Below, one piece after another: positions 39,874-56,680 of a DNA stretch of 64,000 nucleotides (position 1 is the first letter of the stretch; the number at the start of each line of letters is the position of its first letter). Position numbers and translations under genes: made by a program. The notes under the pieces were generated by a model, which saw only the letters and a list, made by a program, of their open reading frames with translations, was not told where the DNA came from and made no database searches. This stretch comes from Chitinophagaceae bacterium (GTDB lineage: Bacteria > Bacteroidota > Bacteroidia > Chitinophagales > Chitinophagaceae). The stretch covers positions 1 through 64,000 of the forward strand of contig JAEUVK010000163.1 in assembly GCA_016787135.1 (NCBI GenBank), in the 5' to 3' direction.

Positions 39874-42800
39874 TCATCCTTTTACTTCAGCACTCACTTT
39901 TTTCTGTATGAGTGCTTTCTTATAATCCCTTGGAAATACTTTGACAAAGTTTTTCAGCTGGTTGTCAAAATCATCGAGGATGAATTTGGCTACTGTGCTG
40001 CCTGTTCTTTCATAATGTGTTTGTATCATGGTGAACAGTTCGTTCTTATCAGACAGATCGCATTCATCAAGGTCAACCATTTCCGTATTGCAATTCTCTG
40101 TGAATTTCGCCTTTACATCATATACGTACGCAATACCACCACTCATGCCTGCAGCAAAGTTTCTGCCGGTATCACCGAGAATGATCGCTCTTCCTCCGGT
40201 CATATATTCACATCCATGATCACCCACACCTTCAACAACTACATTGGCCCCTGAATTACGAACACAAAAACGTTCACCTGCTTTTCCGCGGATAAATGCT
40301 TCACCGGAAGTAGCTCCATAAAAAGCCACATTGCCAATGATGCTGTTTTCTTCCGGAACAAATAATGCATTCTTTGGCGGATAAATGATCAGTCTGGCGC
40401 CGCTTAACCCTTTTCCGAAATAATCGTTTGCATCACCTTCCAGTTCCATGGTTATTCCTTTATTGGTGAATGCTCCAAAACTTTGCCCTGCAGTTCCGAT
40501 GAATTTGAAATGGATGGTATTGTCCGGTAAGCCGGCAGCTTTGTATTTTTTTGTCAGTTCATTCGACAAGATCGTTCCTGCTGTACGGTCGGTATTCTTT
40601 ATTTCAAAGGAAGCTGCGACCGGAGTTTGTTTTTCCAAAGCTGGCTTGGCGGCTTCTAACAATTGCCAGTCTAAAACCGTTGCTATTCCGTGATCCTGTT
40701 CCTCTGCGCAATATAAACCTGTAAATGCTGATAACGGTTCTTTATACAAAACAGGTGAAAGGTCCAGCTTGCTGTATTTCCAATGAGTAATATTTTCTCT
40801 CAGCTGGAGATTATCAACCTGCCCAATCATTTCATTTACTGTTCTGAAGCCAAGATCTGCCATGATCTCCCTGAGTTCCTGCACAATGAACTGGAAAAAA
40901 TTTACCACATGATCAGGATTGCCCGAAAATCTTTTTCTTAATTCAGGGTCCTGGGTAGCGACTCCAACCGGGCATGTATTCAGGTGACATTTACGCATCA
41001 TGATACAACCTTCTACGACCAGTGCTGCTGTAGCAATTCCCCATTCTTCTGCGCCAAGCAATGCAGCAATAGCAATATCACGGCCGGTTTTCATTTGCCC
41101 GTCTGCCTGAACCACTACACGGCTGCGTAATTTATTTTTTACTAATGTCTGGTGCGTTTCAGCCAAACCAAGCTCCCATGGCAAACCTGCATGTTTGATC
41201 GAACTGACAGGAGAAGCACCTGTTCCACCATCGTGGCCGGATATCAATACTACATCCGCTTTTGCTTTGGTAACACCCGCAGCAATTGTTCCCACACCCG
41301 CCTTACTTACCAGTTTTACACTAATGCGTGCATGGCGATTGGCATTTTTTAAATCAAAAATCAACTGGGCGAGATCTTCAATAGAATAAATATCATGGTG
41401 CGGAGGAGGTGATATCAAACCAACACCGGGCGTAGCATGACGAACCCTCCCGATCCATTCATCCACTTTATGACCGGGCAACTGACCGCCTTCACCAGGT
41501 TTTGCACCCTGGGCCATTTTAATTTGCAACTCATCTGATTCTGTGAGGTATAGACTTGTCACACCAAACCTCGCACTGGCTACCTGTTTGATGGCACTGC
41601 GCATAGAATCGCCATTTGGTAATAGCTCATATCTTTTTTCATCTTCACCACCTTCACCGGTATTGCTTTTTGCACCGATGCGGTTCATAGCGATCGCCAG
41701 TGTTGTATGCGCTTCCCATGATATTGAACCGAAACTCATAGCGCCGGTAGCAAAACGTTTATAAATATTTTCTGCAGATTCTACTTCATCTATTGAAATG
41801 GATGGCCTTGTTGATTTGAATTCAAGCAGGCTGCGGAGTGTGCAAGCTTTCTCGCTCTGATCGTTTACCAGTTTAGAATATTTTTTGAAAGTAATGTAAT
41901 CATTCTTCCTTGTAGCATCCTGCAGCAAGTGAATGGTTTGGGGATTGAACAAGTGAAACTCACCCTTTCTTTTCCATTGATAAACACCGCCGACAGGTAA
42001 GCGGTCAACTGGGATATCTTTTTTGCTGAATGAAAAGAAATGTTTTGCCAGCGTTTCTTTCGCTATTTCATCCAGCCCCATTCCCTGTATCCGGGAAGTG
42101 GCGCCGGTAAAATATTTATCTACCACTTCTTTGTTCAGGCCAAGTATCTCAAATATCTGTGCGCCCTGATAAGACTGCAATGTGGAGATACCCATTTTGG
42201 AGAACACTTTTAACAATCCATCATTGATCGCCTTGATGTAGTTCTTCTTCAGTTGTTCTTCATTCAGATCTGTTTGCAGTTTACCTGTTTCCTTCAGGTC
42301 ACGAATAGATGAAAGGGCTAGGTAAGGGTTGATCGCTGTAGCGCCAAAGCCTATCAGGCATGCAAAATGATGAACTTCCCAGGCATCGCCTGCTTCCACA
42401 ATAATACCTACCTGTCCACGCATTCCTTTGCGAATAAGGTGATGGTGAATGGCGGCAGTAGCCAATAAAGAAGGAATGGGAGCGTGGTCGGAATCGATCG
42501 CACGGTCCTGTAATATCAATACTTCAAAACCATCTTCTGCTGCATCCACTGCATAACGACAGATACGGTCAAGCGCTGCTTTCAACGAGCCCGACTTGCC
42601 ATCTGCCCTGAAATAACATTGCAGTGTTTTGGCCTGGAAGATACCCGTATCAATACTTCTAATCTTTTCCAGCTCATGATTGGACAGTATCGGGTGTTTT
42701 AATGCTACGCTATGACAGGTAAGCGGATCTTCTACTAACAGGTTGCCATTATTCCCTACAAAGCTTGCCAACGACATGACCAGTCTTTCACGTATCGGAT

Positions 42801-44391
42801 CAATAGGCGGATTAGTTACCTGGGCAAATAATTGTTTAAAATAACTGCTGAGATGCTGCGGCTGATCACTGAGAATTGCCAAAGGGGTATCTGTTCCCAT
42901 TGATCCAACCGGTTCTTTACCTTCCAATGCCATGGGAGCGATGATCGATTCAAGATCTTCAGTTGAATAACCAAATGCTTTCTGGTATTTGAAAACCTGG
43001 TCATGCTCCAGGTGAGTGAACATGATACGGGGCTCCGGCAGTTCTTCCAGCCTGATCTTGTATTTATTCAGCCATTCTCCATAAGGCTTCTGGGAGCAAA
43101 TTTGTTTTTTAAGCTCTTCATCACTGATGATCTTTCCCTGTTCCATATCTACTACGAACATCTTGCCGGGTTGTAATCTCCCTTTCTCTTTGATGGTAGA
43201 AGGATCAACCGGTAATACACCTGTTTCTGATGCCATGATCACACGGTCATCAGTTGTTACGCAATAGCGTGATGGACGTAAGCCATTCCTGTCAAGGGTA
43301 GCGCCGATTATTTTTCCATCTGTAAATGAAATGGAAGCCGGACCATCCCATGGCTCCATAAAGGATGAATGATATTCATAGAATGCCTTTTTAACCGGGT
43401 CCATATGTTCGTTGCCATCCCATGCTTCAGGTATCAGCATCATCATTACATGCGGCAATGAACGTCCGGTCAATGTCAGCAATTCGATCATATTGTCAAG
43501 ACAGGCAGAGTCGCTTTGGTTCTCCGTTACGATAGGCAGCAGCCTGTCCATTTCTTCTTTGGTAAAATAAGGGGACGTAAACCCTTTTTCACTGGTCTTA
43601 AGCCAGTTTAGGTTACCCTGCAGTGTATTGATCTCCCCGTTGTGTGCAATGAAGCGGAATGGCTGAGCCAATTTCCAGGAAGGGAATGTATTGGTAGCAA
43701 AACGGGAGTGGACGAGACCAAATGCACTGACCACCCTTTTATTGCTAAGATCAGGGAAATAACCCCGTACCTGCATGCTTGTTAACTGACCTTTGTATAC
43801 GATCACTTTGTAAGAAAGCGATGCAATGTAAAAACCAATGGTATCTTTTTTTACGGTCTGGTTGATCGTATGCGAAGCGTAATTACGGAGAACGAACAGC
43901 TTTCTTTCAAAATCATCCGGGTTGGAGATATGATCCGGACATGCAATGAAGACATGCTCCATCTCTGGTTCTACCGTTAATGCGGTATAACCAATACCAT
44001 CAGTATTCACAGGTACTTTCCTGTAGGCGAGCACTTCCAATCCCAGCGTTTCGGCTGTACGATTAAAAATGTCACGGCATTCTTCCCGTAGTCTTATTTC
44101 TTTCGGAAAAAAGATCACGCCAACGCCGTACTTACCAAATGAGGGCAGGTGAACGCCCAGCTTCAGGCATTCATCAAAGAAGAACTCATGCGGCATCTGG
44201 ATCATAATACCGGCGCCGTCGCCCGTATTATTCTCACAACCGCATGCACCGCGGTGTTCCATATTTTCCAATACGGTCAATGCATCGGAAATGATGGGGT
44301 GTGATTTGTGACCTTTGATATTAGCCACAAAGCCGATACCACAGGCATCATGCTCATACGAAGGGTGATACAAACCAGTGTTGCTCGCCAT
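39874..44391 (-). CDS. gltB: Glutamate synthase large subunit
   Basis: It makes two glutamates from glutamine and 2-oxoglutarate. The 1505-residue protein has a class II amidotransferase domain whose catalytic Cys17 (HDACGIGF) becomes N-terminal after removal of a 16-residue propeptide. A central domain, the FMN synthase barrel (KPGEGGQLPGHKV, SGHDGGTGASP), a 3Fe-4S site (CIMMRKCHLNTCPVG) and the C-terminal beta-helix complete it. It is paired with gltD. Confidence 0.97.
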   Translation of the reverse strand: MASNTGLYHPSYEHDACGIGFVANIKGHKSHPIISDALTVLENMEHRGACGCENNTGDGAGIMIQMPHEFFFDECLKLGVHLPSFGKYGVGVIFFPKEIRLREECRDIFNRTAETLGLEVLAYRKVPVNTDGIGYTALTVEPEMEHVFIACPDHISNPDDFERKLFVLRNYASHTINQTVKKDTIGFYIASLSYKVIVYKGQLTSMQVRGYFPDLSNKRVVSAFGLVHSRFATNTFPSWKLAQPFRFIAHNGEINTLQGNLNWLKTSEKGFTSPYFTKEEMDRLLPIVTENQSDSACLDNMIELLTLTGRSLPHVMMMLIPEAWDGNEHMDPVKKAFYEYHSSFMEPWDGPASISFTDGKIIGATLDRNGLRPSRYCVTTDDRVIMASETGVLPVDPSTIKEKGRLQPGKMFVVDMEQGKIISDEELKKQICSQKPYGEWLNKYKIRLEELPEPRIMFTHLEHDQVFKYQKAFGYSTEDLESIIAPMALEGKEPVGSMGTDTPLAILSDQPQHLSSYFKQLFAQVTNPPIDPIRERLVMSLASFVGNNGNLLVEDPLTCHSVALKHPILSNHELEKIRSIDTGIFQAKTLQCYFRADGKSGSLKAALDRICRYAVDAAEDGFEVLILQDRAIDSDHAPIPSLLATAAIHHHLIRKGMRGQVGIIVEAGDAWEVHHFACLIGFGATAINPYLALSSIRDLKETGKLQTDLNEEQLKKNYIKAINDGLLKVFSKMGISTLQSYQGAQIFEILGLNKEVVDKYFTGATSRIQGMGLDEIAKETLAKHFFSFSKKDIPVDRLPVGGVYQWKRKGEFHLFNPQTIHLLQDATRKNDYITFKKYSKLVNDQSEKACTLRSLLEFKSTRPSISIDEVESAENIYKRFATGAMSFGSISWEAHTTLAIAMNRIGAKSNTGEGGEDEKRYELLPNGDSMRSAIKQVASARFGVTSLYLTESDELQIKMAQGAKPGEGGQLPGHKVDEWIGRVRHATPGVGLISPPPHHDIYSIEDLAQLIFDLKNANRHARISVKLVSKAGVGTIAAGVTKAKADVVLISGHDGGTGASPVSSIKHAGLPWELGLAETHQTLVKNKLRSRVVVQADGQMKTGRDIAIAALLGAEEWGIATAALVVEGCIMMRKCHLNTCPVGVATQDPELRKRFSGNPDHVVNFFQFIVQELREIMADLGFRTVNEMIGQVDNLQLRENITHWKYSKLDLSPVLYKEPLSAFTGLYCAEEQDHGIATVLDWQLLEAAKPALEKQTPVAASFEIKNTDRTAGTILSNELTKKYKAAGLPDNTIHFKFIGTAGQSFGAFTNKGITMELEGDANDYFGKGLSGARLIIYPPKNALFVPEENSIIGNVAFYGATSGEAFIRGKAGERFCVRNSGANVVVEGVGDHGCEYMTGGRAIILGDTGRNFAAGMSGGIAYVYDVKAKFTENCNTEMVDLDECDLSDKNELFTMIQTHYERTGSTVAKFILDDFDNQLKNFVKVFPRDYKKALIQKKVSAEVKG

Positions 44392-44536
44392 ACTCAGTTA
44401 TGTTGTTTTATAAAATATATGTTATTGAACCGGCAGGGCCGGTGCTGTCCAGTCAGGCAAGCAATGCGTTCAATTTACTAAATCGTGGCGGCTTTCAGAG
44501 GTACTGAGATCAATAGATTTCCACACTTACCTGACA

Positions 44537-45793
44537 TCATACCAAATAACCAAACAGTGTGTCATTCTTGTTCAGTTCTGTATAGTTGATCTTATAATCC
44601 TGCATTTTTTTTATCAGCAATTCATAATCATCTTTCGATTGCAATTCTACTCCTACCAGGGCAGGGCCATTTTCTTTATTCGTCTTTTGCATGTATTCAA
44701 AACGGGTGATATCATCTGTAGGTCCGAGTACGTTATTGACAAATTCCTTTAATGCTCCCGGTCTTTGGGCAAAATTGATCAGGAAATAATGTTTCAACCC
44801 TTCGTACTGCAACGAACGTTCTTTTATTTCCTGCATCCTGTCTATATCATTGTTGCTGCCGCTGACAATGCAGACAACATTTTTGTCTTTTATATCATCA
44901 GCAAAATCATCCAGTGCTGCGATAGATAGTGCGCCTGCGGGCTCTACTACGATAGCATCCTCATTGTACAGCTTCAGGATGGTCGTACATATTTTCCCTT
45001 CCGGAACCAAACGCATGTCATCCAGCACATCTTTGCATATAGAGAACGTAAGATCGCCGACCCTTTTTACAGCAGCGCCATCTACAAAACGGTCAATACT
45101 TTCCAGTTGAACAGGATGACCTCTCTTTAATGCTTCGTACATCGAAGGGGCACCTTCGGGTTCAAGCCCGATGATCTTTGTTTTTGGAGAAAATATTTTA
45201 AAGTAGGAACCTACTCCTGCACTCAATCCGCCGCCGCCAACTGGTACAAAGACATAATCAACTCCCGGTTTGTCAGCAAGTATTTCAACAGCTACCGTTC
45301 CCTGCCCTTCAATGATACGGTGGTCATCAAATGGAGGGATAAAGGTCATGCCGTTTTCTTCCGTGAATTTTTTTGCTGCTACAGCACAGTCATCGAACGT
45401 ATCGCCGATCAATCTTATCTCAATATTGTTTTCACCAAACATCTTCGTCTGGTTCACCTTCTGGGAAGGAGTAATGATCGGCATGAACACAACACCCTTT
45501 ACACCAAGTTTTTTACAACTGTAAGCAAATCCCTGCGCATGATTGCCGGCGCTGGCACATACCACTCCTTTCTGCAATTGTTCTTTCGGCAGGCTGCTCA
45601 TCATATTGTAAGCGCCCCGCAGTTTATAAGAACGCACCACCTGCAGGTCTTCCCTTTTCAGGTAAACGTTACACTGATACTTGCGTGAAAGGTTCGCATT
45701 CAACTGAAGCGGTGTTCTGTTCACAATTCCATGCAAACGTTCTGCCGCTTCAGCAAAATGCAATGTATTGGTATGTGTCGCCACTTGTTCCAT
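44537..45793 (-). CDS. ilvA: Threonine ammonia-lyase (threonine dehydratase)
   Basis: It converts threonine to 2-oxobutanoate, the first step of isoleucine synthesis. The 418-residue PLP enzyme has SYKLRGAYNMM (PLP lysine), SAGNHAQG and VGGGGLSAG. One C-terminal ACT-like domain (about 330-418; LKHYFLINFAQRPGALKEF) should give isoleucine feedback. The gene lies 21 bases after ilvC and ends the ilv transcript before gltB. Confidence 0.95.
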   Translation of the reverse strand: MEQVATHTNTLHFAEAAERLHGIVNRTPLQLNANLSRKYQCNVYLKREDLQVVRSYKLRGAYNMMSSLPKEQLQKGVVCASAGNHAQGFAYSCKKLGVKGVVFMPIITPSQKVNQTKMFGENNIEIRLIGDTFDDCAVAAKKFTEENGMTFIPPFDDHRIIEGQGTVAVEILADKPGVDYVFVPVGGGGLSAGVGSYFKIFSPKTKIIGLEPEGAPSMYEALKRGHPVQLESIDRFVDGAAVKRVGDLTFSICKDVLDDMRLVPEGKICTTILKLYNEDAIVVEPAGALSIAALDDFADDIKDKNVVCIVSGSNNDIDRMQEIKERSLQYEGLKHYFLINFAQRPGALKEFVNNVLGPTDDITRFEYMQKTNKENGPALVGVELQSKDDYELLIKKMQDYKINYTELNKNDTLFGYLV

Positions 45794-45814
45794 TATACTA
45801 TTCTCTTTACTCTA

Positions 45815-46939
45815 TTATCCTACTGATTCACTTTTCAACGCCTGTTTTCTGAAAGCTTCTTTGGTAGAAGAAGTACTTTCGGCTGTGGGAGGTTTTTGAT
45901 TTTCCGGTCTGAGGCTTCTTACCGTTTTTCCGGCTTGCCAGAGTTCACTTTCACGCAGCTCTTTCAGTTCTGCTTCTAATTTTTCCCGGTAATCAGGTTG
46001 CGAGTTAGAGTCTATTGAACGTTGTGATTCTTTTCCGGTCGCTACGCTTTCATACAATTCATTGAACACTGGTTTAGTAGCATCGCGGAATTTCTTCCAC
46101 CAATCCAATGCACCACGCTGTGCAGTGGTAGAGCAGTTCGCATACATCCAGTCCATGCCATTTTCAGCCACTAATGGCATCAGTGATTGTGTCAACTCTT
46201 CTACTGTTTCATTGAAGGCTTCGCTTGGGGTATGACCTTTTGCACGCAACACCTCATATTGTGCAGCAAAGATCCCTTGTATAGCGCCCATCAGTGTTCC
46301 TCTTTCGCCGGTAAGATCAGAGTACACTTCTTTTTTGAAATCAGTCTCAAACAAATAACCGCTTCCTACAGCAATACCTAATGCGATAACTCTGTCAAAT
46401 GCTTTGCCAGTTGCATCCTGGTAGATGGCATAAGAACTGTTCAGGCCGCGTCCTTGCAGGAACATCCTTCTCAGCGATGTGCCGGAGCCTTTGGGGGCTA
46501 CCAGGAATACATCTACATCTTTCGGGGGAATAATACCGGTTTGTTCGTTGAAAGTGATCCCGAAACCATGTGAGAAGTACAGCGCTTTGCCGGGTGTCAG
46601 ATGTTTTTTAACGGTCGGCCATAAAGCGATCTGCGCAGCATCGCTCAGCAAATAACAGATGATCGTTCCTTTTTGCAAAGCTTCCTCAATTTCAAATAAC
46701 GTTTCACCAGGTACGAATCCATCACGGATAGCTTTATCCCAGGTCTTTGAATCCTTGCGTTGACCCACGATCACATTGATACCATTATCTTTCTGGTTCA
46801 ATGCCTGGCCGGGGCCCTGCACACCATAGCCGATCACAGCTACTGTTTCATTTTTCAATACCTGTTGTGCTTTGCTGAGTGGAAATTCTTCCCGTGTTAC
46901 CACATTTTCTTCCACTCCGCCGAAATTTAGCTTTGCCAT
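45815..46939 (-). CDS. ilvC: Ketol-acid reductoisomerase
   Basis: It converts acetolactate and acetohydroxybutyrate to the dihydroxy acids of valine and isoleucine synthesis. The protein of about 374 residues shows the NADPH site GYGVQGPGQALNQKDNG and a C-terminal helical domain with ETDFKKEVYSDLTGERGTL (acid metal ligands). The frame is open 24 codons further, overlapping the GAF gene, but homologues start at MAKLNFGG, so the ATG at 46939 was chosen. Confidence 0.95.
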   Translation of the reverse strand: MAKLNFGGVEENVVTREEFPLSKAQQVLKNETVAVIGYGVQGPGQALNQKDNGINVIVGQRKDSKTWDKAIRDGFVPGETLFEIEEALQKGTIICYLLSDAAQIALWPTVKKHLTPGKALYFSHGFGITFNEQTGIIPPKDVDVFLVAPKGSGTSLRRMFLQGRGLNSSYAIYQDATGKAFDRVIALGIAVGSGYLFETDFKKEVYSDLTGERGTLMGAIQGIFAAQYEVLRAKGHTPSEAFNETVEELTQSLMPLVAENGMDWMYANCSTTAQRGALDWWKKFRDATKPVFNELYESVATGKESQRSIDSNSQPDYREKLEAELKELRESELWQAGKTVRSLRPENQKPPTAESTSSTKEAFRKQALKSESVG

Positions 46940-46970
46940 TGTTATTTGTTTTTGGTTGATTATTGTTTGT

Positions 46971-47423
46971 TTAGTTATTTGTTCTCCATAATGACCGTAT
47001 CGCTGCTGCACATTCTTCTAAAAAGGCAGCATCCTCTTTACTGAAAGCATTCTTCGTTTCACTTTCTGCATCAATAGTTCCAGTGATCGTTCCGTTATTT
47101 TCACTAAATACAGGCACAATGATCTCTGATTCGGTATTGGTGAATGTCAGCAGGTAATCCTCATCTGATTTGGCGTCGTTCACTATCACTGTTTTCTTTT
47201 GAATAACAGCTTTACCATTTAATCCTTTGTCTTTTGGAAACGAAGTAAAGACCGGTTCTGTTCTTCCTGCACAGGAAATAATGGATATCTCCGATTCTTT
47301 TACGTCATAAAGACCCACCCATGAGTAGTTACCTGCCAAACGGATCTTATCAGCGATCAGTTTAGCTTTTTCTTTCCTTGGACGGTCGCTTTGTAATATG
47401 TCAGCAAAAGATATTTTCTCCAT
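46971..47423 (-). CDS. GAF-domain protein inside the ilv operon
   Basis: The 150-residue single GAF domain resembles free methionine-(R)-sulfoxide reductase (NYSWVGLYD, then FTSFPKDKGLNGKA, SEIIVPVF, TGTIDAESE). The family's catalytic cysteines are absent: the usual VCG reads LNG, and the Cys before SEI is missing. It is therefore not expected to be that reductase. It lies between ilvN (18 bases) and ilvC, so it may bind a metabolite of the pathway. Function unknown. Confidence 0.7.
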   Translation of the reverse strand: MEKISFADILQSDRPRKEKAKLIADKIRLAGNYSWVGLYDVKESEISIISCAGRTEPVFTSFPKDKGLNGKAVIQKKTVIVNDAKSDEDYLLTFTNTESEIIVPVFSENNGTITGTIDAESETKNAFSKEDAAFLEECAAAIRSLWRTNN

Positions 47424-47441
47424 AACAGGTTATTCTTTCAG

Positions 47442-48032
47442 TTACATGCTGAAAACCTTCTCGTTTTCATTCAGGAACTCATTTTCTATGGCACCTTCCC
47501 CCGGTTCGCGGTACTCAAACTCTTTTAATTTTTCATGGAAGCCGTCACTATCTTTAATGATCGCTACCCTTGCACTGCGGACAAACTCGATCAGGCCATA
47601 AGGTTCCAGCACTTTGATCAGATTATCTGTCTCTTCTCTGTGGCCGGCTACTTCAAATACAGTATAATCTTTTCGGATCACTACGGCTTTGGCGCCATGC
47701 TCACGCAACAGTCTTTCTACTTTTACTTCTTCAGCAATGATATCCGTCGGGACCTTATATAATGCCAGTTCCTGCCATACGATCTCTTCCTGTGTGTTAT
47801 AATATGCTTTCAACACCTCTACCTGTTTTTCGATCTGGCGGCAAAGCTTTCTTACCACGTCTTCTGTTTCATTGATCACAATAGTGAATCTGTGAACACT
47901 ATCCACTTCGGAGGGAGAAGTGTTCAGGCTTTCGATATTGATCTTTCGCCTGGAGAAAATGATCGCAATACGGTTCAGCAGACCAATCTGGTTCTCGGTG
48001 TAAACGGTGATAGTATATTCCTGTTTGAGCAT
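47442..48032 (-). CDS. ilvN: Acetolactate synthase small (regulatory) subunit
   Basis: It binds the end product (usually valine) and controls the catalytic subunit IlvB. The 196-residue protein has an N-terminal ACT domain (YTITVYTENQIGLLNRIAI, residues 5-80) and a C-terminal regulatory domain. It follows ilvB by 19 bases. Confidence 0.93.
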   Translation of the reverse strand: MLKQEYTITVYTENQIGLLNRIAIIFSRRKINIESLNTSPSEVDSVHRFTIVINETEDVVRKLCRQIEKQVEVLKAYYNTQEEIVWQELALYKVPTDIIAEEVKVERLLREHGAKAVVIRKDYTVFEVAGHREETDNLIKVLEPYGLIEFVRSARVAIIKDSDGFHEKLKEFEYREPGEGAIENEFLNENEKVFSM

Positions 48033-48051
48033 GATTTTTACTTTTTAATTA

Positions 48052-49812
48052 TCAAACCTCTTCTTTACATAAAACGATCTCTGCTACGCCTCGCCCCTGT
48101 GGTACCATCGGGAATACGTTATTTTCTTTTCCTACCATTACTTCCAGCAGAAAACTTCTTTTTGATCCCAGCAGTTCTTTTAAAGCGCCTTTAAGGTCTT
48201 TTCTTTCAGAAATGCTTTTGCCAGGAATGCCAAATCCCTTTGCCACCTGTACAAAGTCGGGGCTTTGGATATCAACAAATGAATATCTCTTTTCATGGAA
48301 CAGCTGCTGCCATTGACGTACCATTCCAAGGAAATTATTATTGAGAATAATGATTTTTACATCCGGCTTGAACTGCATGATGGTACCCAGTTCCTGCAAT
48401 GTCATCTGGAACCCGCCGTCACCAATGATAGCTATCGTTGTCCTTGAGGGATCGCCGTAAGAAGCCCCGATAGCTGCAGGCAAAGCATATCCCATTGTTC
48501 CCAGTCCGCCACTGGTAATATTGCTTTTCGACTGGTTGAATTTGGCATACCGGCATGCTACCATCTGGTGCTGGCCCACATCTGTTACGATGATCGCATC
48601 GCCCTTGGTTAATTCGTTTAATTCTTTGATCACTTCGCCCATTGTCAATACATCTCCGGCTGGGTTGAGTTCATCTTTTATTACTTTATCTTCTTCTTTT
48701 TGCTGGTGATCTTTGAAACGCTGCAGCCACTGTGGATAGACTTTCTGTTCGATCAGTTCTGTAAGCATAGGTAATGTCTCCTTACAATCACCCCAGACAG
48801 GAACTGTTGATTTTACATTCTTGTCTATTTCTGCAGGATCAATGTCAAGATGCACCACTTTTGCCTGCTTGGCATATTTATCCAATCTTCCTGTTACACG
48901 GTCATCAAAGCGCATACCGACAGCGATCAGTACATCGCATTCATTCGTGAGCACATTCGGTCCATAGTTGCCATGCATACCTAACATACCCATCGCTAAT
49001 GGGTGATCAGTAGGAATAGCGCTCATTCCCATGATGGTCCATGCTGCAGGAGTGCCGGCTTTTTCTATGAATTGTTTAAATTCTTTTTCTGCTTTGCCCA
49101 GTATAACTCCCTGGCCAAAGATCACAAATGGCCTTTCCGCAGCATTGATGAGCCTGGCTGCTTCTTCCACATATTCTTTTCTTACAATGGGCTTCGGGCG
49201 ATAGCTCCTGATATGTTCACATTTTTCGTAGCCTGTATAATCAAACTTCTGTAGCTGTGCATTCTTTGTGATATCAATTACCACTGGTCCGGGTCTTCCG
49301 CTGCCTGCGATATAAAAGGCTTTGGCCAACACCGAAGGTATTTCCGTGGCATCGGTTACCTGGTAGTTCCATTTGGTGACCGGTGTAGTGATGTTGATCA
49401 CATCTGTTTCCTGGAAGGCATCTGTCCCTAACAAATGAGCAAACACCTGGCCGGTGATACATACAACCGGGGTAGAGTCTATCATTGCATCAGCCAGGCC
49501 GGTTACAAGATTGGTAGCGCCAGGGCCGCTGGTGGCAAATACAACACCGACTTTACCGGAGGCCCTTGCATAACCCTGTGCTGCATGGATAGCGCCTTGC
49601 TCATGACGGACAAGGATATGCTGGAGTCTATCATTGTAATCATACAGTGCATCATAGATAGGCATGATGGCTCCACCCGGATACCCGAAGATCGTTTCCA
49701 CGCCCTCTGCCAAAAAAGCCTCAAGCACGGCGACCGAACCTGAAACAGAAGTTACTGTCTTTGTATCTGTTTTCGTTTGCTTTTTTGTCATTGCAAGAGT
49801 TTCCATGATCAT
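48052..49812 (-). CDS. ilvB: Acetolactate synthase large subunit
   Basis: It joins pyruvate to pyruvate or 2-oxobutanoate using thiamine diphosphate, FAD and Mg2+. The 586-residue enzyme shows FGYPGGAIMPIYD, the active-site RHEQGAIHAAQGYARASG and the ThDP motif GDGGFQMTLQEL with NNNFLGMVRQWQ. Three possible starts exist (49812, 49806, 49791); the first follows the DinB-like stop codon by one base. Confidence 0.96.
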   Translation of the reverse strand: MIMETLAMTKKQTKTDTKTVTSVSGSVAVLEAFLAEGVETIFGYPGGAIMPIYDALYDYNDRLQHILVRHEQGAIHAAQGYARASGKVGVVFATSGPGATNLVTGLADAMIDSTPVVCITGQVFAHLLGTDAFQETDVINITTPVTKWNYQVTDATEIPSVLAKAFYIAGSGRPGPVVIDITKNAQLQKFDYTGYEKCEHIRSYRPKPIVRKEYVEEAARLINAAERPFVIFGQGVILGKAEKEFKQFIEKAGTPAAWTIMGMSAIPTDHPLAMGMLGMHGNYGPNVLTNECDVLIAVGMRFDDRVTGRLDKYAKQAKVVHLDIDPAEIDKNVKSTVPVWGDCKETLPMLTELIEQKVYPQWLQRFKDHQQKEEDKVIKDELNPAGDVLTMGEVIKELNELTKGDAIIVTDVGQHQMVACRYAKFNQSKSNITSGGLGTMGYALPAAIGASYGDPSRTTIAIIGDGGFQMTLQELGTIMQFKPDVKIIILNNNFLGMVRQWQQLFHEKRYSFVDIQSPDFVQVAKGFGIPGKSISERKDLKGALKELLGSKRSFLLEVMVGKENNVFPMVPQGRGVAEIVLCKEEV

Positions 49813-49813
49813 T

Positions 49814-50302
49814 TTATTTTCTGTAAAAACTTAATAAATCTGTCGAGCCTATATTCGTAAATCCTGTTTGCCTGATCATCGTCACCAACTGACCACGATG
49901 GTAAGTCGAGTGATTGAACGTGTGGGCAAACATGACAAAGAACGGCGTTGTCATGTCTATACCATTCAGTCTTTTATAGGTCAATGATGTTTGCAACCGG
50001 CTTTCGTCAAAACCTGCTACATAGTCCTTTAGTTTCTGTGATGTTTTCTTCCACAATTCAATATGTTCTTCTTTTGAACCTTTGTAAGAAAACTGGATCC
50101 ATTCCACAGGCTTTTCTTCAAATCGTTCCAGCCAAGCTTTTTCCGCACTGATAATATGCAGTACCGTTTCCCGGACGGTGTTAAAGCTGCTGATAATTTC
50201 TTTGTTCCATTGCTCTTCATCTAACTGTTCCAGCCAGCTGCATACTATGTTGTTTGCCCAGACATTGAAATCAGCCAGTAGTGTAAAATATTCTTTCGTC
50301 AT
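49814..50302 (-). CDS. DinB-like metal-binding four-helix protein
   Basis: The 162-residue protein is a DinB/YfiT-type four-helix bundle. The probable metal-binding histidines are His49 (VLHIISAEKAWL), His131 and His135 (NHSTYHRGQ). Members are often thiol-dependent transferases or of unknown role. Its place between ilvD (11 bases) and ilvB (1 base) implies cotranscription with branched-chain synthesis, but no enzymatic role there is known to me. Confidence 0.82.
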   Translation of the reverse strand: MTKEYFTLLADFNVWANNIVCSWLEQLDEEQWNKEIISSFNTVRETVLHIISAEKAWLERFEEKPVEWIQFSYKGSKEEHIELWKKTSQKLKDYVAGFDESRLQTSLTYKRLNGIDMTTPFFVMFAHTFNHSTYHRGQLVTMIRQTGFTNIGSTDLLSFYRK

Positions 50303-50313
50303 GATCGTACTTT

Positions 50314-51996
50314 TCAGGCCTCATCTGTTACGCAGCCTTCGTCTGCCGGTTTTACACTTTGTGCATATTTATATAAAATACCTTTTGTCGCTTTTAGCTC
50401 TGGTTGCTTCCATTTCTTTCTTCTCTTTTCAATTTCCTTGTCGCTTACTTTTAATGAGAGTTTATTCTTCTTCGCATCAATTTTAATGATGTCATCATCT
50501 TTGACCAATGCGAGCAGCCCGCCTTCATGGGCTTCGGGAGTGATATGGCCTACGACAAATCCGTGAGTACCGCCACTGAACCTTCCATCGGTGATCAGGG
50601 CCACTGATTTACCTAGTCCTGCACCAATGATAGCGGATGTAGGTTTCAGCATCTCCGGCATACCAGGAGCGCCTTTGGGCCCAACATAACGGATCACCAC
50701 TACATCGCCTGGTTTTATTTTCCCGGAGTTAATGCCATTGATCAGTTCAAACTCACCATCAAATACCCGGGCGGGTCCTTCAAATTTTTCACCTTCTTTA
50801 CCGCTTATCTTGGCGACACTCCCTTTTTCAGCCAGGTTACCATACAGAATTTGCAGGTGCCCCGTTTTTTTTATGGGTTGCTCAAGCGGGTAAATAATTT
50901 TCTGTGTGTTAAAATCCAGACCCGGAACACCTGCTAAATTTTCTGCTACCGTTTTACCGGTCACTGTCAAACAATCGCCATGGAGCAAACCATTTTGCAA
51001 TAGATATTTCATCACTGCCGGTACACCACCATGCTCATGCAGGTCCTGCATGAGATATTTTCCAGAGGGTTTGAAATCGGCTAACACGGGTACTATATCA
51101 CTGATCTTTTGAAAATCATCTTGTGTTAATTTGATATTTACACTTTTTGCCATTGCAATCAGGTGCAATACTGCGTTAGTGCTTCCGCCCAATACCATAA
51201 TGACGGTGATAGCATTTTCAAACGCTTTCTTTGTCATGATATCAGAGGGCTTAATATCTTTTTCCAGCAATAAACGAATGGCCTGGCCTGCTGCCGCACA
51301 TTCTTTTTGCTTGTCTTCACTCAGGGCAGGATTGGAGGAAGAATAGGGGAGGCTCATACCTAATGCTTCGATGGCGGAAGCCATTGTATTGGCTGTGTAC
51401 ATGCCGCCACATGCACCCGCACCGGGACACGAATGTTGTACAATGCCTTTGAAATCTGCTTCGCTTAGTTGTCCGGCTATTTTTTGGCCCAATGCTTCAA
51501 ATGCACTCACAATATTCAGGTCTTGTCCTTTATAATGCCCGGGAGCTATTGTACCACCATATACCATGATCGCAGGACGGTTCAGTCTTCCCATGGCTAT
51601 CAATGACCCGGGCATATTCTTATCGCAACCGGGAACAGCTATCAATCCATCGTAATATTGAGCACCGCAAACGGCTTCTATCGAATCAGCAATGATATCA
51701 CGGCTTACGAGTGAATAACGCATACCGTCAGTGCCATTACTCATACCATCGCTTACGCCGATCGTATTAAATATTAAACCCACCATGTCATTGTCCCACA
51801 CACCTTGTTTGACCGTTTTGGCCAGGTCATTCAAATGCATATTGCATGTGTTGCCATCATAGCCCATGCTTACGATCCCTACCTGTGGTTTCTTCAGGTC
51901 TTCGTCTGTCAGCCCTATTCCGTAAAACATAGCCTGCGCTGCTGGCTGTGTCGGGTCCTGCGTGATCGTCTTTGAGTATTTATTGAGTTCTGCCAT
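50314..51996 (-). CDS. ilvD: Dihydroxy-acid dehydratase
   Basis: It dehydrates the dihydroxy acids to 2-oxo acids in valine and isoleucine synthesis, using an Fe-S cluster. The 560-residue protein shows the family motifs [10 protein letters not shown] (cluster Cys), [16 protein letters not shown] and [17 protein letters not shown]. It is the first structural gene after the attenuator at 52026-52059, so its output, and that of the genes behind it, should respond to isoleucine and valine supply. Confidence 0.96.
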
Positions 51997-52025
51997 TTCT
52001 GATTAATAGTTTATCGGGTACTGAT

Positions 52026-52059
52026 AAAAAAAGACCCGCCTATTGGGAGGCGGGTCTTT
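52026..52059 (-). terminator. Attenuator terminator before ilvD
   Basis: On the - strand AAAGACCCGCCT (52059-52048) pairs perfectly over 12 bp with AGGCGGGTCTTT (52041-52030) around CCCAAT, and seven T run to 52026. CCGCCTCCC (52053-52045), spanning its left arm and loop, is also able to pair with GGGAGGTGG at 52099-52091 near the end of the leader peptide gene. That gives a 9-bp antiterminator with one G-U pair. Confidence 0.9.
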
Positions 52060-52083
52060 GTATTTCGTTTAGTTATTGTAAAA

Positions 52084-52182
52084 CTAGGCACCACCTCCCG
52101 TTGAAGCAGATATAATAATGACCACCACAATAATCATTCTGGCTACAAGAGAGATCACATTATATTTTTTGCCCTTCAACAT
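52084..52182 (-). CDS. ilvD leader peptide (32 aa) for ribosome-mediated attenuation
   Basis: This frame begins with ATG at 52182 and ends with TAG. Codons 17-24 are eight consecutive Ile/Val codons (ATT ATT GTG GTG GTC ATT ATT ATA), and further Val, Ile and Leu codons occur at 9-13. The last codons (T-G-G-G-A) are themselves the antiterminator strand GGGAGGTGG. A ribosome stalled on the Ile/Val codons would leave it free; one that reaches the stop codon would cover it and let the terminator form. It lies 24 bases before the attenuator stem. Confidence 0.9.
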   Translation of the reverse strand: MLKGKKYNVISLVARMIIVVVIIISASTGGGA

Positions 52183-52197
52183 AGAGTGTATGCACTG

Positions 52198-52205
52198 CGA
52201 ATATA
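52198..52205 (-). promoter_or_regulatory. Likely -7 box for the ilvD leader transcript
   Basis: TATATTCG on the - strand matches 7 of 8 bases of TAnnTTTG. It lies 15 bases before the leader start codon, so transcription would start just before it. The leu genes upstream may also read through. Confidence 0.45.
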
Positions 52206-52247
52206 CACCCGCCGGTCGAAAAAAGAACTAAGGCAAGCAATTATTTT

Positions 52248-53369
52248 TTATATGATAGTTGATTTTCTCAACTCAATATTCTCCTTCTTCACCGATGCAG
52301 GTATCTTTCCTGATACGTAGTCGCTGATCAGTTCACCGATCGTTGAAGTGAAATAGAAATTTACCGGGTCAATATCTTTTGTCACGAAACTGTTTTCCAA
52401 TGTCCAGTTAACGGCTTCACGCACCAATGCTGCTTCCTGCGTCAGGGAGAGGTATTCGAGCAACATGGCTCCTGATAAGATGGAACCCAGCGGATTGGCG
52501 ATATCTTTTCCGGCCGCCTGCGGATAAGAGCCATGGATCGGTTCGAATAATACAGTTCCTTTTCCAACAGAAGCAGAGGGCATCAGTCCTAATGAACCGC
52601 TTAATACACTGGCTTCATCACTGATGATATCGCCAAACATGTTTTCTGTGAGAACGATGTCAAATTGCTTTGGATTGAGAATGATCTGCATGGCAGCATT
52701 GTCAACGAACATATATTCAACGGTGACATCCGGATACTCTTTTGCAATATCCTGTACTACTTTTCTCCACAACCTCGATGTCTCCAGCACATTGGCTTTG
52801 TCAACCAGCGTTAATTTCTTTCTGCGTTCAGGCTTTTGTGCAAAATGAAAAGCGAGATGAGCGATCCTTTCGATCTCTTCTCTCGTATAAATGCAATCGT
52901 CAGAGGCCTGTGTGCCTTCCGCATTGATCTCTTTTTTGCCAAAATAGATGCCGCCTGTCAGCTCACGGAAAATGATGAAGTCAACTCCTTCTAATTGTTT
53001 GGCTTTTAACGGCGATAAATGCTGCAGCGAAGCATAGGTACTGATAGGGCGGAGGTTCGCATATAGCTGTAGCGATTTCCTCAGTTTTAGTAAGCCCTGC
53101 TCTGGTCTTACTTTGGCAGTAGGGTCGTTATCATATTTGGGATGACCAATCGCCCCGAATAGCACAGCATCGCTGTTAAGGCATGATTCGATAGTTTCGT
53201 CCGGTAGGGGGTTGCCGGTTTTATCAATGGCCACAGCACCCATCAGGCAATAAGTATAGTCAAACTCGTGGCCAAAACGTTCGGCAATTGCATTCAGCAC
53301 TTTAACCGATTGCCTCGTCACTTCCGGCCCGATGCCATCACCTTCTATCACTGTTATATGTTTCTTCAT
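52248..53369 (-). CDS. leuB: 3-isopropylmalate dehydrogenase
   Basis: It oxidises 3-isopropylmalate to the leucine precursor with NAD+. The 373-residue enzyme has EGDGIGPEV, GAIGHPKYD, the RELTGGIYFG loop, DKANVLETSRLWR and the NAD site HGSYPQAAGKDIANP. It follows leuD by 36 bases, and the attenuator region starts after its stop codon. Confidence 0.96.
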   Translation of the reverse strand: MKKHITVIEGDGIGPEVTRQSVKVLNAIAERFGHEFDYTYCLMGAVAIDKTGNPLPDETIESCLNSDAVLFGAIGHPKYDNDPTAKVRPEQGLLKLRKSLQLYANLRPISTYASLQHLSPLKAKQLEGVDFIIFRELTGGIYFGKKEINAEGTQASDDCIYTREEIERIAHLAFHFAQKPERRKKLTLVDKANVLETSRLWRKVVQDIAKEYPDVTVEYMFVDNAAMQIILNPKQFDIVLTENMFGDIISDEASVLSGSLGLMPSASVGKGTVLFEPIHGSYPQAAGKDIANPLGSILSGAMLLEYLSLTQEAALVREAVNWTLENSFVTKDIDPVNFYFTSTIGELISDYVSGKIPASVKKENIELRKSTII

Positions 53370-53405
53370 ATTTCGAAAGCCAAAGGCCTTTTAAAGTTTC
53401 TGGTA

Positions 53406-54005
53406 TTAAATAACGTGCTCCTTTTCGTAGTTGCTGATCTCTTCCTTAATGCTCAGCAGATAATCAATATCATCATAGCCATTCAGCAGGCATGTCTTTT
53501 TATAGTTGTTGATGTCAAAACTTTCTTTTTCGCCTGAGGAAACGATACTGATATATTGTTCCGGTAAATTCACTTCAATTTCTGTGGCCGGATTTTGTTC
53601 AATGGCAGCAAACAGTTTCTGCAGGAAATCTTCGCTGACGGTCACAGGAAGCAGGAAGTTGTTCAGCGCATTGTTTTTAAAAATATCAGCAAAGAAGCTG
53701 CTGACCACTACATCAAAACCGCCATCTTTGATCGCCCATGCTGCATGTTCCCTGGAAGAGCCGCAGCCAAAATTTTTTGCAGCCACTAATATACTTCCAC
53801 GGTAAGCCGGTTTATTTAAGGAAAAATCTCTTTTGGGTTTTGTTTCATCATCATTTTCATATCTCCAGTCACGGAACAGGTTCTTGCCAAAACCTTCTCT
53901 GCTGGTCGCTTTTAAAAAGCGTGCAGGGATGATCTGGTCAGTATCCACATTCTCCATATTCAGTGGCACTGCAGTCGATCTGATTATGCTGATTTGTTTG
54001 CTCAT
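53406..54005 (-). CDS. leuD: 3-isopropylmalate dehydratase small subunit
   Basis: It forms the isomerase with LeuC. The 199-residue swivel domain shows [12 protein letters not shown] and the [18 protein letters not shown] motif. It lies 12 bases after leuC. Confidence 0.96.
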
Positions 54006-54017
54006 TTGCTTGCAGGA

Positions 54018-55439
54018 TCAATTATTGACTAACTCACTTTTACTGTAATATTCCCTGATATCGCCTACTTCTCCGGTAATGGCGGCTAATGCTGCCGTTA
54101 ACGGGCTCGCTAAAAATGTTCTTGCATTAGGCCCTTGTCTTCCTTCAAAGTTCCTGTTGGAAGTAGAGATGCAATATTTGCCGGCAGGAATTTTATCTTC
54201 ATTCATTCCAAGGCAAGCGCTGCAGCCGGGCTGCCGGAGTATAAAACCGGCCGCAGCAAATATTTTATCAATGCCTTCTTCAATGGCTTGTTTTTCTACC
54301 TGTTTGCTTCCGGGAACGATCCATACTTCCACGTCGTCAGCTTTGTGTTTGCCTTTTACAAAACCGGCTACCATTCTCAGGTCCTCAATTCTCGAATTGG
54401 TACAACTGCCGATGAAGACGTAATCCACTTTCTTCCCTTTGATATTCGCACCGGGCTGAAGACCCATATAAGCCAGCGACTTTTCAAAAGATGGCTTTTC
54501 TTTTTCATCTACTTCGTTCAAAGCGGGCACATGGCCGCTTACGCCAATACCCATACCCGGATTGGTACCATAAGTGATCATCGGCTCAATATCCTCAGCT
54601 TTGATGTTTATTTCTTTATCAAATACTGCATCGGCATCGCTGTATAATGTTTTCCAATAGGCTAATTTCTTATCCCATTCTGCACCTGCAGGAGCGAACT
54701 TTCTTCCTTTTATATAACCAAACGTGATTTCATCAGGGGCGATCATACCGCAACGGGCGCCCATTTCAATGCTCATGTTACAGATCGTCATTCTGGCTTC
54801 CATGGAAAGTGAACGGATAGCTGAACCAGCAAACTCAACTGCATAACCTGTAGCGCCACTGGCAGTGATCTGCGATAATATATAGAGAACAATGTCCTTA
54901 CTTACTACTCCTTTGTTCAGTTTGCCATCAATGCTGATTCGCATCAGTTTAGGTTTGCTTTGCATCAAACATTGCGTGGCCAATACCATTTCTACTTCGC
55001 TGGTGCCAATACCAAAGGCAATGTTGCCAAATGCACCATGGGTAGATGTATGGCTGTCGCCGCATACGATCGTCATTCCCGGCTGCGTGATACCGAGCTC
55101 GGGCCCTATAACATGAACAATGCCCTGGAACGGGTGTCCAAGGCCATACAATTCTATACCATGTTCTGCACAATTCTTCTTCAATGCCTCTACCTGCAGC
55201 CTCGATAATTCCTCTTTGATAGGTAAGTGCTGGTTAAGGGTAGGTACATTATGATCGGCAGTAGCAACGACCTGCTGCGGACGAAAAACTTTGATGCCCC
55301 TCTTATTCAGTCCTGCAAATGCCTGCGGGCTGGTCACTTCGTGAATGAAATGGGTATCAATGTAAAAAACGGATGGGCCGCCATCAATCGTTTTGACGAC
55401 ATGTTTGTCCCAGATCTTTTCAAATAATGTTTGTCCCAT
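54018..55439 (-). CDS. leuC: 3-isopropylmalate dehydratase large subunit
   Basis: It carries the 4Fe-4S cluster of isopropylmalate isomerase. The 473-residue aconitase-like protein has [28 protein letters not shown] and [10 protein letters not shown] (cluster cysteines). A hairpin lies in the 71-base gap between leuA and this gene. Confidence 0.96.
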
Positions 55440-55450
55440 TGCTGTTTTTT

Positions 55451-55479
55451 AAAAATAGCATGATGTAGAAACATCACGC
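55451..55479 (-). terminator. Terminator-like hairpin between leuA and leuC
   Basis: On the - strand GCGTGATGT (55479-55471) pairs with ACATCATGC (55466-55458) over nine positions, one G-U, around TTCT, then TATTTTT. It may be a weak terminator that tunes leuCDB relative to leuA. Confidence 0.5.
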
Positions 55480-55510
55480 TTTCCAAAACTATCTGCTTAA
55501 GAGAAAATCC

Positions 55511-56680
55511 TTATGTTGTGATAACTGTGGTCTCAAAACTTTTTGCCATCGCCTGCAGGTCTGCATCTTCCACTTCTTTTTTCCTGTCCGCTACTTTCAG
55601 AAACTCGGCATATAATACATCGACATCATTCCGGTTGAATTGGTACCCTAACTTGTGAAAACGGTGGGCTAATGCACTTCTTCCGCTTCTCGCTGTCAGT
55701 ACGATCTTAGAACCATCCGCACCTACCTCTTCAGGGGCTATAATCTCATAGGTCTGCGCATCTTTCAAAAATCCATCCTGGTGAATCCCGGATGAATGAG
55801 AAAATGCATTGCTTCCCACTATCGCTTTATTGGCCTGTACCGGCATCCTCATGGTATCGGATACGAGGCGGCTGATCGGATTCAACTGCTGTGTTTTGAT
55901 ATTGGTGTAGTAGCCAAGTGTATGATGCTGTTTCAGGATCATCACTACTTCTTCTAATGAAGTATTACCCGCCCTTTCACCAAGGCCATTAATAGTACAT
56001 TCTATTTGTCTGGCCCCATTTAAAACACCAGAAATGGAGTTAGCAGTAGCCAAGCCCAGATCGTTATGACAATGACAACTGATGATGGCCTTGTCTATGT
56101 TCGGTACATTATTAATAAGATAAGCGATCTTTTCACCGTACTGATGCGGTAAACAATAGCCGGTAGTATCCGGAATGTTCACCACCGTGGCGCCGGCTTT
56201 GATGACTGCTTCGATCACCCTGGCGAGATACTCATTATCCGTGCGACCGGCATCTTCTGCATAGAACTCTACATCATCTACAAAGTTCTTTGCCCACTTT
56301 ACGGCCTGAATGGCTCTTTCAAGTATTTCCTCCCTTGTGGCATTGAATTTTGCCTTGATATGAGAATCAGATGTTCCGATGCCTGTATGAATACGTGGGC
56401 GAACAGCTCCTTTTAATGCGGCTGCCGCGGTCTCAATATCTTTTTCGACGGCACGGCTGAGTCCACAGACCGTAGCATGTTTGATTACTTTGGCGATCTC
56501 CTGTACGGAAGCAAAGTCCCCAGGAGAAGAAATGGGGAACCCCGCTTCGATAATATCAACACCTAAATCCTCGAGGGCCAGCGCCAGTTCGATCTTTTCA
56601 CCGGCATTCAGCTTGCATCCCGGTACCTGCTCTCCGTCACGAAGAGTGGTATCAAAGATGTGGATTTTTTTATCAGCCAT
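55511..56680 (-). CDS. leuA: 2-isopropylmalate synthase, short form
   Basis: It commits 2-oxoisovalerate to leucine with acetyl-CoA. The 389-residue protein has [12 protein letters not shown], the metal site [14 protein letters not shown], and [15 protein letters not shown]. The C-terminal regulatory domain of the usual 500-residue LeuA is absent, so direct leucine feedback through that domain is not expected. A citramalate or homocitrate synthase role is possible in principle, but the leuCDB neighbours support LeuA. Confidence 0.9.

Follow-up and report, generated by a model that had tools for sequence, protein, structure and literature searches.

Results

Gene context and anatomy of the leuB–ilvD gap

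The window, a 64,000-nucleotide stretch of DNA from a member of the Chitinophagaceae, carries a cluster of genes for branched-chain amino acid biosynthesis. Pfam assigns LeuB to the gene upstream of the region studied here and, downstream of it, IlvD, a DinB-family protein, the large and small subunits of acetolactate synthase, a GAF-domain protein, IlvC, and threonine dehydratase (IlvA), which agrees with the order ilvD-(dinB-like)-ilvB-ilvN-GAF-ilvC-ilvA proposed in an earlier, sequence-only reading of this DNA. The spacing of the genes from ilvD to ilvA suggests that they are co-transcribed. Within this presumed operon, the GAF-domain gene (46971-47423) overlaps the longest ilvC frame, and the DinB-family gene (49814-50302) also adjoins ilvD in four related loci (L106, L113, L119, and L120). 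No attenuator was seen before leuA. The features of the locus are as follows.

52198..52227, reverse strand: predicted promoter, with TTCTTTT at 52227-52221 and a -7 box, TATATTCG, at 52205-52198, fitting the Bacteroidota sigma-A motif TAnnTTTG
52182-52084, reverse strand: leader peptide ORF, 32 codons plus TAG, encoding MLKGKKYNVISLVARMIIVVVIIISASTGGGA (read from the sequence; homologous leaders in 94 loci)
52134-52111, reverse strand: control codons, eight consecutive Ile/Val codons (ATT ATT GTG GTG GTC ATT ATT ATA)
52099-52091, reverse strand: antiterminator 5' strand, GGGAGGTGG, inside the last leader codons (covariation and own-versus-swapped duplex test)
52053-52045, reverse strand: antiterminator 3' strand, CCGCCTCCC, common to the left arm and loop of the terminator
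52059-52030, reverse strand: intrinsic terminator hairpin of 12 bp with a 6-nt loop (arms 52059-52048 and 52041-52030; predicted fold -21 kcal/mol)
52032-52026, reverse strand: T-run of the terminator, 7 T (read from the sequence)
50314..51996, reverse strand: ilvD, first gene under presumed control (Pfam ILVD_EDD)
44537..50302, reverse strand: rest of the presumed operon, namely the DinB-family gene, ilvB, ilvN, the GAF gene, ilvC, and ilvA (Pfam)

The 32-codon frame with eight Ile/Val codons in a row and the 12-bp terminator with seven T lie, to the base, where the sequence-only reading had placed them; the coordinates that it gave for a 9-bp alternative pairing between 52099-52091 and 52053-52045 proved right as well, as did its count of 12 bases between the last Ile codon and the antiterminator strand. 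The control run encodes Ile-Ile-Val-Val-Val-Ile-Ile-Ile. When the intergenic region was shuffled 20,000 times with dinucleotides preserved, no small ORF with a run of eight such codons arose; the run therefore is not a product of chance, and the longest Ile/Val run in the other short ORFs of the 64-kb window is at most four. Folding of the whole region gives a z-score of -4.0, and sequence and structure together predict a rho-independent terminator between the leader and the first gene. The antiterminator comprises 9 bp in the window, its GGA starting 12 nt past the Ile/Val run; it thus begins just downstream of the control codons, and its formation excludes that of the terminator.

The predicted promoter region aligns among relatives. 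TAnnTTTG is the -7 box recognized by sigma-A in flavobacteria, according to a transcriptome study of Flavobacterium psychrophilum (PMC9723704), and 75 of the 94 copies of the element have a match to TAnnTTYG no more than 60 nt ahead of the leader ATG, against 7 expected from shuffles.

Conservation across the Chitinophagaceae

A homologous leader was found directly upstream of ilvD in 10 of 30 related loci. At E <= 0.01, a covariance model, R1, built from those ten leaders had matches in 158 of the 244 genomes of the family, representing 76 of its 101 genera; some of the matches weaker than about 1e-4 in this count are probably due to chance. The family in question is the Chitinophagaceae, as judged by named records: 50 of 80 named ilvD loci have a clear match (E 2e-5 or better), and the carriers include Flavihumibacter, Segetibacter, Terrimonas, Pinibacter, Pollutibacter, Agriterribacter, and Chitinophaga. 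The element is nearly always present as one strong copy per genome, and the source genome of the window likewise has one. Of 28 family genomes with this type of ilvD, 23 have a strong match and five lack one; of eight family genomes without it, none has a strong match (Fisher p 4e-5). Nearly all the matches that were fetched stand directly before ilvD or one gene away from it, usually with leuB upstream; at one such family locus (L005), the intervening gene resembles one for a branched-chain aminotransferase, as seen only from a C-terminal fragment upstream of ilvD.

The architecture is nearly uniform among the 94 copies. Their control runs comprise 461 Ile, 322 Val, and 34 Leu residues, Pro follows the run in 68 copies, 81 copies have a 12-nt gap between the last Ile/Val codon and GGAGG, and the stop codon falls 0-24 nt, mostly 9-18, after the GG. 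The comparison with relatives that the sequence-only reading had called for thus shows that they retain the frame of the leader, its run of Ile/Val codons, the spacing, and the two helices, with the terminator and the antiterminator both covarying.

Leader translation might nevertheless control the operon by some other route, for instance through translational coupling or termination by Rho, and the hairpin would then have no more than an auxiliary part. Bacteroidota use initiation signals other than Shine-Dalgarno, as the F. psychrophilum study relates (PMC9723704), so coupling might differ from that in E. coli. In relatives, however, ilvD lies up to several hundred nucleotides from the leader or behind another gene, which makes direct translational coupling unlikely, and the terminator with its T-run is kept in the 94 copies; we consider this explanation very improbable.

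One exception to the usual arrangement was seen: at L061 (G010:C1:2567733-2567836), the attenuator precedes a gene for a small ACT-domain protein, far from ilvD, where it seems to be either a remnant of the broken-up operon or a later recruit. The IlvD of Elizabethkingia, a flavobacterium (L191 and L192), is 82% identical to that of the window and is encoded without a match to the attenuator model, a possible case of horizontal transfer.

The codons of the control runs are also distinctive. Across the leaders of 94 loci (alignment A5), the runs contain 406 ATT and 16 ATC codons, and 168 GTG, 97 GTC, and 25 GTA codons, whereas ten biosynthetic genes in the window (39874-56680), which represent a single genome, prefer ATC (184) over ATT (124) and, for Val, prefer GTA (149). 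Almost all codons of the runs are therefore ATT, GTG, or GTC, and the favored Ile and Val codons of the neighboring genes, ATC and GTA, are avoided. This bias could stem from decoding speed or from RNA structure.

Covariation of the two helices

Evidence that the two mutually exclusive helices are each maintained comes from substitutions in the alignment of 94 copies, in which counts refer to sequences and not to independent events. In the terminator, 93% of cells are paired and 8 of 11 pairs have changes on both sides; cells changed on both sides number 72, against 17 in shuffles and far above the values in slid controls. In the antiterminator, 92.5% of cells are paired, and only 3 of 8 pairs show two-sided changes because this helix is so conserved; cells changed on both sides number 8 versus 0.8 in shuffles. 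Slid controls for the antiterminator give similar two-sided counts, yet far fewer of their cells are paired. The antiterminator duplex is also more stable with its own partner than with swapped partners (-16.7 versus -15.6 kcal/mol; 0 of 5000 permutations), a comparison that again counts sequences. Individual compensated changes are GGAAGTGG/CCACTTCC in three loci of one genus (L026, L109, and L131), GGAAGTG/CGCTTCC in a locus of another genus (L060), and TGCAGGAGG/CCTCCTGCA in L140. These patterns in the aligned sequences indicate that both the terminator and the antiterminator are under selection.

The same evidence bears on two rival explanations. The hairpin might simply terminate transcription of the upstream leu operon, as an ordinary intrinsic terminator next to a chance hydrophobic ORF, with no regulatory switch involved: the end of leuB is 65 nt away from the leader, no second terminator is apparent between leuB and ilvD, and folding predicts a strong terminator. 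The shuffling result for the eight-codon run, the family-wide conservation and covariation of the leader, 12-nt spacing, and antiterminator pairing, and the conserved promoter motif inside the gap all speak against this, leaving it with hardly any likelihood. Just as implausible is a functional small hydrophobic protein (a membrane peptide or toxin) to which the RNA structure is secondary: its core, IIIVVVIIIP, is kept in most of the 94 loci, but is mostly 8-11 residues long, which is not enough for a membrane-spanning helix, and consists almost only of Ile and Val (783 versus 34 Leu, the commonest membrane residue), while the N-terminal half of the leader varies freely and the codons after the run covary with the terminator arm, as pairing at the RNA level would require.

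A probable ribosome-mediated attenuator and its predicted switch

Collectively, these analyses argue that the leuB–ilvD gap harbors a transcription attenuator that works through the ribosome and responds to charged tRNA-Ile and tRNA-Val, a reading to which we assign a probability of roughly 0.93. The sequence-only reading had proposed such control of the ilv genes, and the comparative tests support it. From the anatomy and its conservation, the covariation of both helices, and the gene context, we infer how transcription would start and end prematurely, where the ribosome would stall, and how the operon would respond to amino acids. RNA polymerase would start some 10 nt ahead of the leader, whose 32 codons would be translated by a ribosome. 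With Ile and Val plentiful, the ribosome would reach the stop codon and cover GGGAGGTGG, leaving CCGCCTCCC free, so that the terminator would form and transcription would end before ilvD. Were either amino acid short, the ribosome would stall in the run, and the 12 nt between the end of the run and GGAGG would leave GGGAGGTGG just outside it; GGGAGGTGG would then pair with CCGCCTCCC while the right arm of the terminator had yet to be transcribed, permitting read-through into ilvD-ilvB-ilvN-ilvC-ilvA. Given the generally known size of the ribosome footprint, the stop codons appear to be placed so that a finishing ribosome would cover the antiterminator strand.

Folding is consistent with this sequence of events. 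When a stalled ribosome was modeled by masking the RNA up to the run, the nascent antiterminator formed with a mean probability of 0.85. With the right arm of the terminator present and the 5' part masked, the terminator prevailed at equilibrium (means of 0.88 versus 0.09 for the antiterminator), and the models therefore suggest that the switch must be kinetic. A ribosome at the stop codon would cover GGAGG and leave the terminator (-21 kcal/mol in the window) as the sole option.

No conserved protector helix is predicted

A conserved protector (1:2) or pause helix upstream was sought in the alignment, and the RNAalifold consensus was empty, with an energy of 0. Thermodynamic folding paired GGAGG upstream with a mean probability of 0.07, against 0.03 in a shuffled-upstream control. 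E. coli trp served as the positive control for this computation: the probability that the left arm of the terminator is paired upstream is 0.89 (family mean) versus 0.05 in E. coli trp without a ribosome, and 0.93 versus 0.56 with the ribosome stalled. A large 5' hairpin in the window's own fold was considered as a part of the mechanism and dropped, as the consensus was empty and the shuffled control equal.

Discussion

According to a 2010 survey, which added Firmicutes, leader peptide systems had until then been known only from Proteobacteria and Actinobacteria (PMC2965389). Leader-like sORFs have been described in Bacteroides thetaiotaomicron (PMC7366714), and the main text of the F. psychrophilum transcriptome study mentions, in a single sentence, strong clues for leader-peptide attenuation in the 5' regions of amino-acid biosynthesis operons of that member of the same phylum (PMC9723704). 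The Ile/Val element of the Chitinophagaceae is not described in that main text (PMC9723704). The sequence-only reading was thus right that attenuators are less described in this phylum, with the correction that they are not undescribed. PMC4833913 cites a comparative paper by Lopatovskaya and others (2010) that may extend to Bacteroidota. Searches of Rfam at gathering and permissive thresholds returned no family (Leu, Thr, Trp, and Phe leaders) that reaches its gathering score. Attenuation in Bacteroidota has therefore already been suggested, and the Chitinophagaceae Ile/Val element is without an Rfam family.

The element resembles the ilvL leader of the E. coli ilvXGMEDA operon, which likewise has 32 residues, stretches of Val and Ile codons with Pro after them, a trait also of most relatives of the window's element (MTALLRVISLVVISVVVIIIPPCGAALGRGKA), Gly codons near the end, and a terminator before branched-chain amino acid genes. 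Unlike ilvL, which also contains Leu codons and precedes ilvX/ilvG, the Chitinophagaceae leader uses almost only Ile and Val codons and lies before ilvD. Homology between the two is unsupported: BLAST detects none between the peptides, and E. coli ilvL scores 26 bits with R1 versus 108 bits for the window. Convergence is the simplest reading of the likeness. With the four-segment trpL system of E. coli, the element shares a 2:3 antiterminator and a 3:4 terminator, control codons just before segment 2, and a ribosome that at the stop codon would cover segment 2; it differs in that segment 1, the protector, was not found. Hence, of the enterobacterial logic invoked in the sequence-only reading, the anatomy of attenuation holds, but the element is no replica of the four-segment trp scheme, as a search for a conserved protector helix found none.

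If no protector helix forms, the models predict that an untranslated leader should read through, unlike in E. coli trp. In Corynebacterium glutamicum, the ilvBNC leader contains Val, Ile, and Leu codons, its transcription start lies close to the start codon, and a terminator, an antiterminator, and an anti-antiterminator hairpin precede the branched-chain genes; removal of the leader start codon lowers expression by 80% (PMC11857589). The opposite effect of start-codon loss is predicted for the Chitinophagaceae element. Tentatively, and at somewhat less than even odds, this reversed default may be family-wide, the RNA being antiterminated unless a ribosome finishes the leader, with ilv, his, and trp all under leader-peptide attenuation in a phylum whose translation does not depend on Shine-Dalgarno sequences. 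If so, loss of leader translation would switch the operon on, not off.

As judged from its conservation in most of the family, the attenuator is very likely functional, and the control classically known from enterobacteria very likely operates in Bacteroidota too. For the phylum, this is a family-wide example of ribosome-mediated attenuation that is well supported and whose promoter, leader, antiterminator, and terminator are each assigned to the base. Carriers with isolate genomes, including Chitinophaga japonensis, Flavihumibacter, Segetibacter, Terrimonas, and Pinibacter, open the element to direct testing. Whether transcription and translation are closely coupled in Bacteroidota could also be tested cleanly with it, because the switch would work only if the ribosome closely trails the polymerase.

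Other amino-acid operons of the source genome (G000) have leaders of the same kind. A His leader, MLVNVHIHHHHVAHAVSCDGCM, with its own terminator lies before hisG on contig C143 (L228), roughly 290 to 210 nt ahead of the HisG match, and contains a GGTAAGC complementary to the terminator arm GGGCTTACC; similar His leaders occur in relatives and in other Bacteroidota families. A Trp leader, MRMINVNIQWWWHTNS, followed by a terminator, precedes trpE (L271, contig C97) and is kept in most relatives examined. Folding of the His and Trp leaders gave mixed results as to a protector. Among weak R1 matches outside the family, L067, L071, and L078 look like plain terminators, L074 and L075 are His leaders, and L065, L066, L068, L069, and L070 are real Ile/Val leaders. 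By inspection, the gene between leader and ilvD in L065 and L066 looks like a branched-chain aminotransferase gene. The leaders of L068, L069, and L070, which come from other families of the class (for example, MKNIINIAVIIIIIIIR), precede a gene resembling that for the small subunit of acetolactate synthase instead of ilvD.
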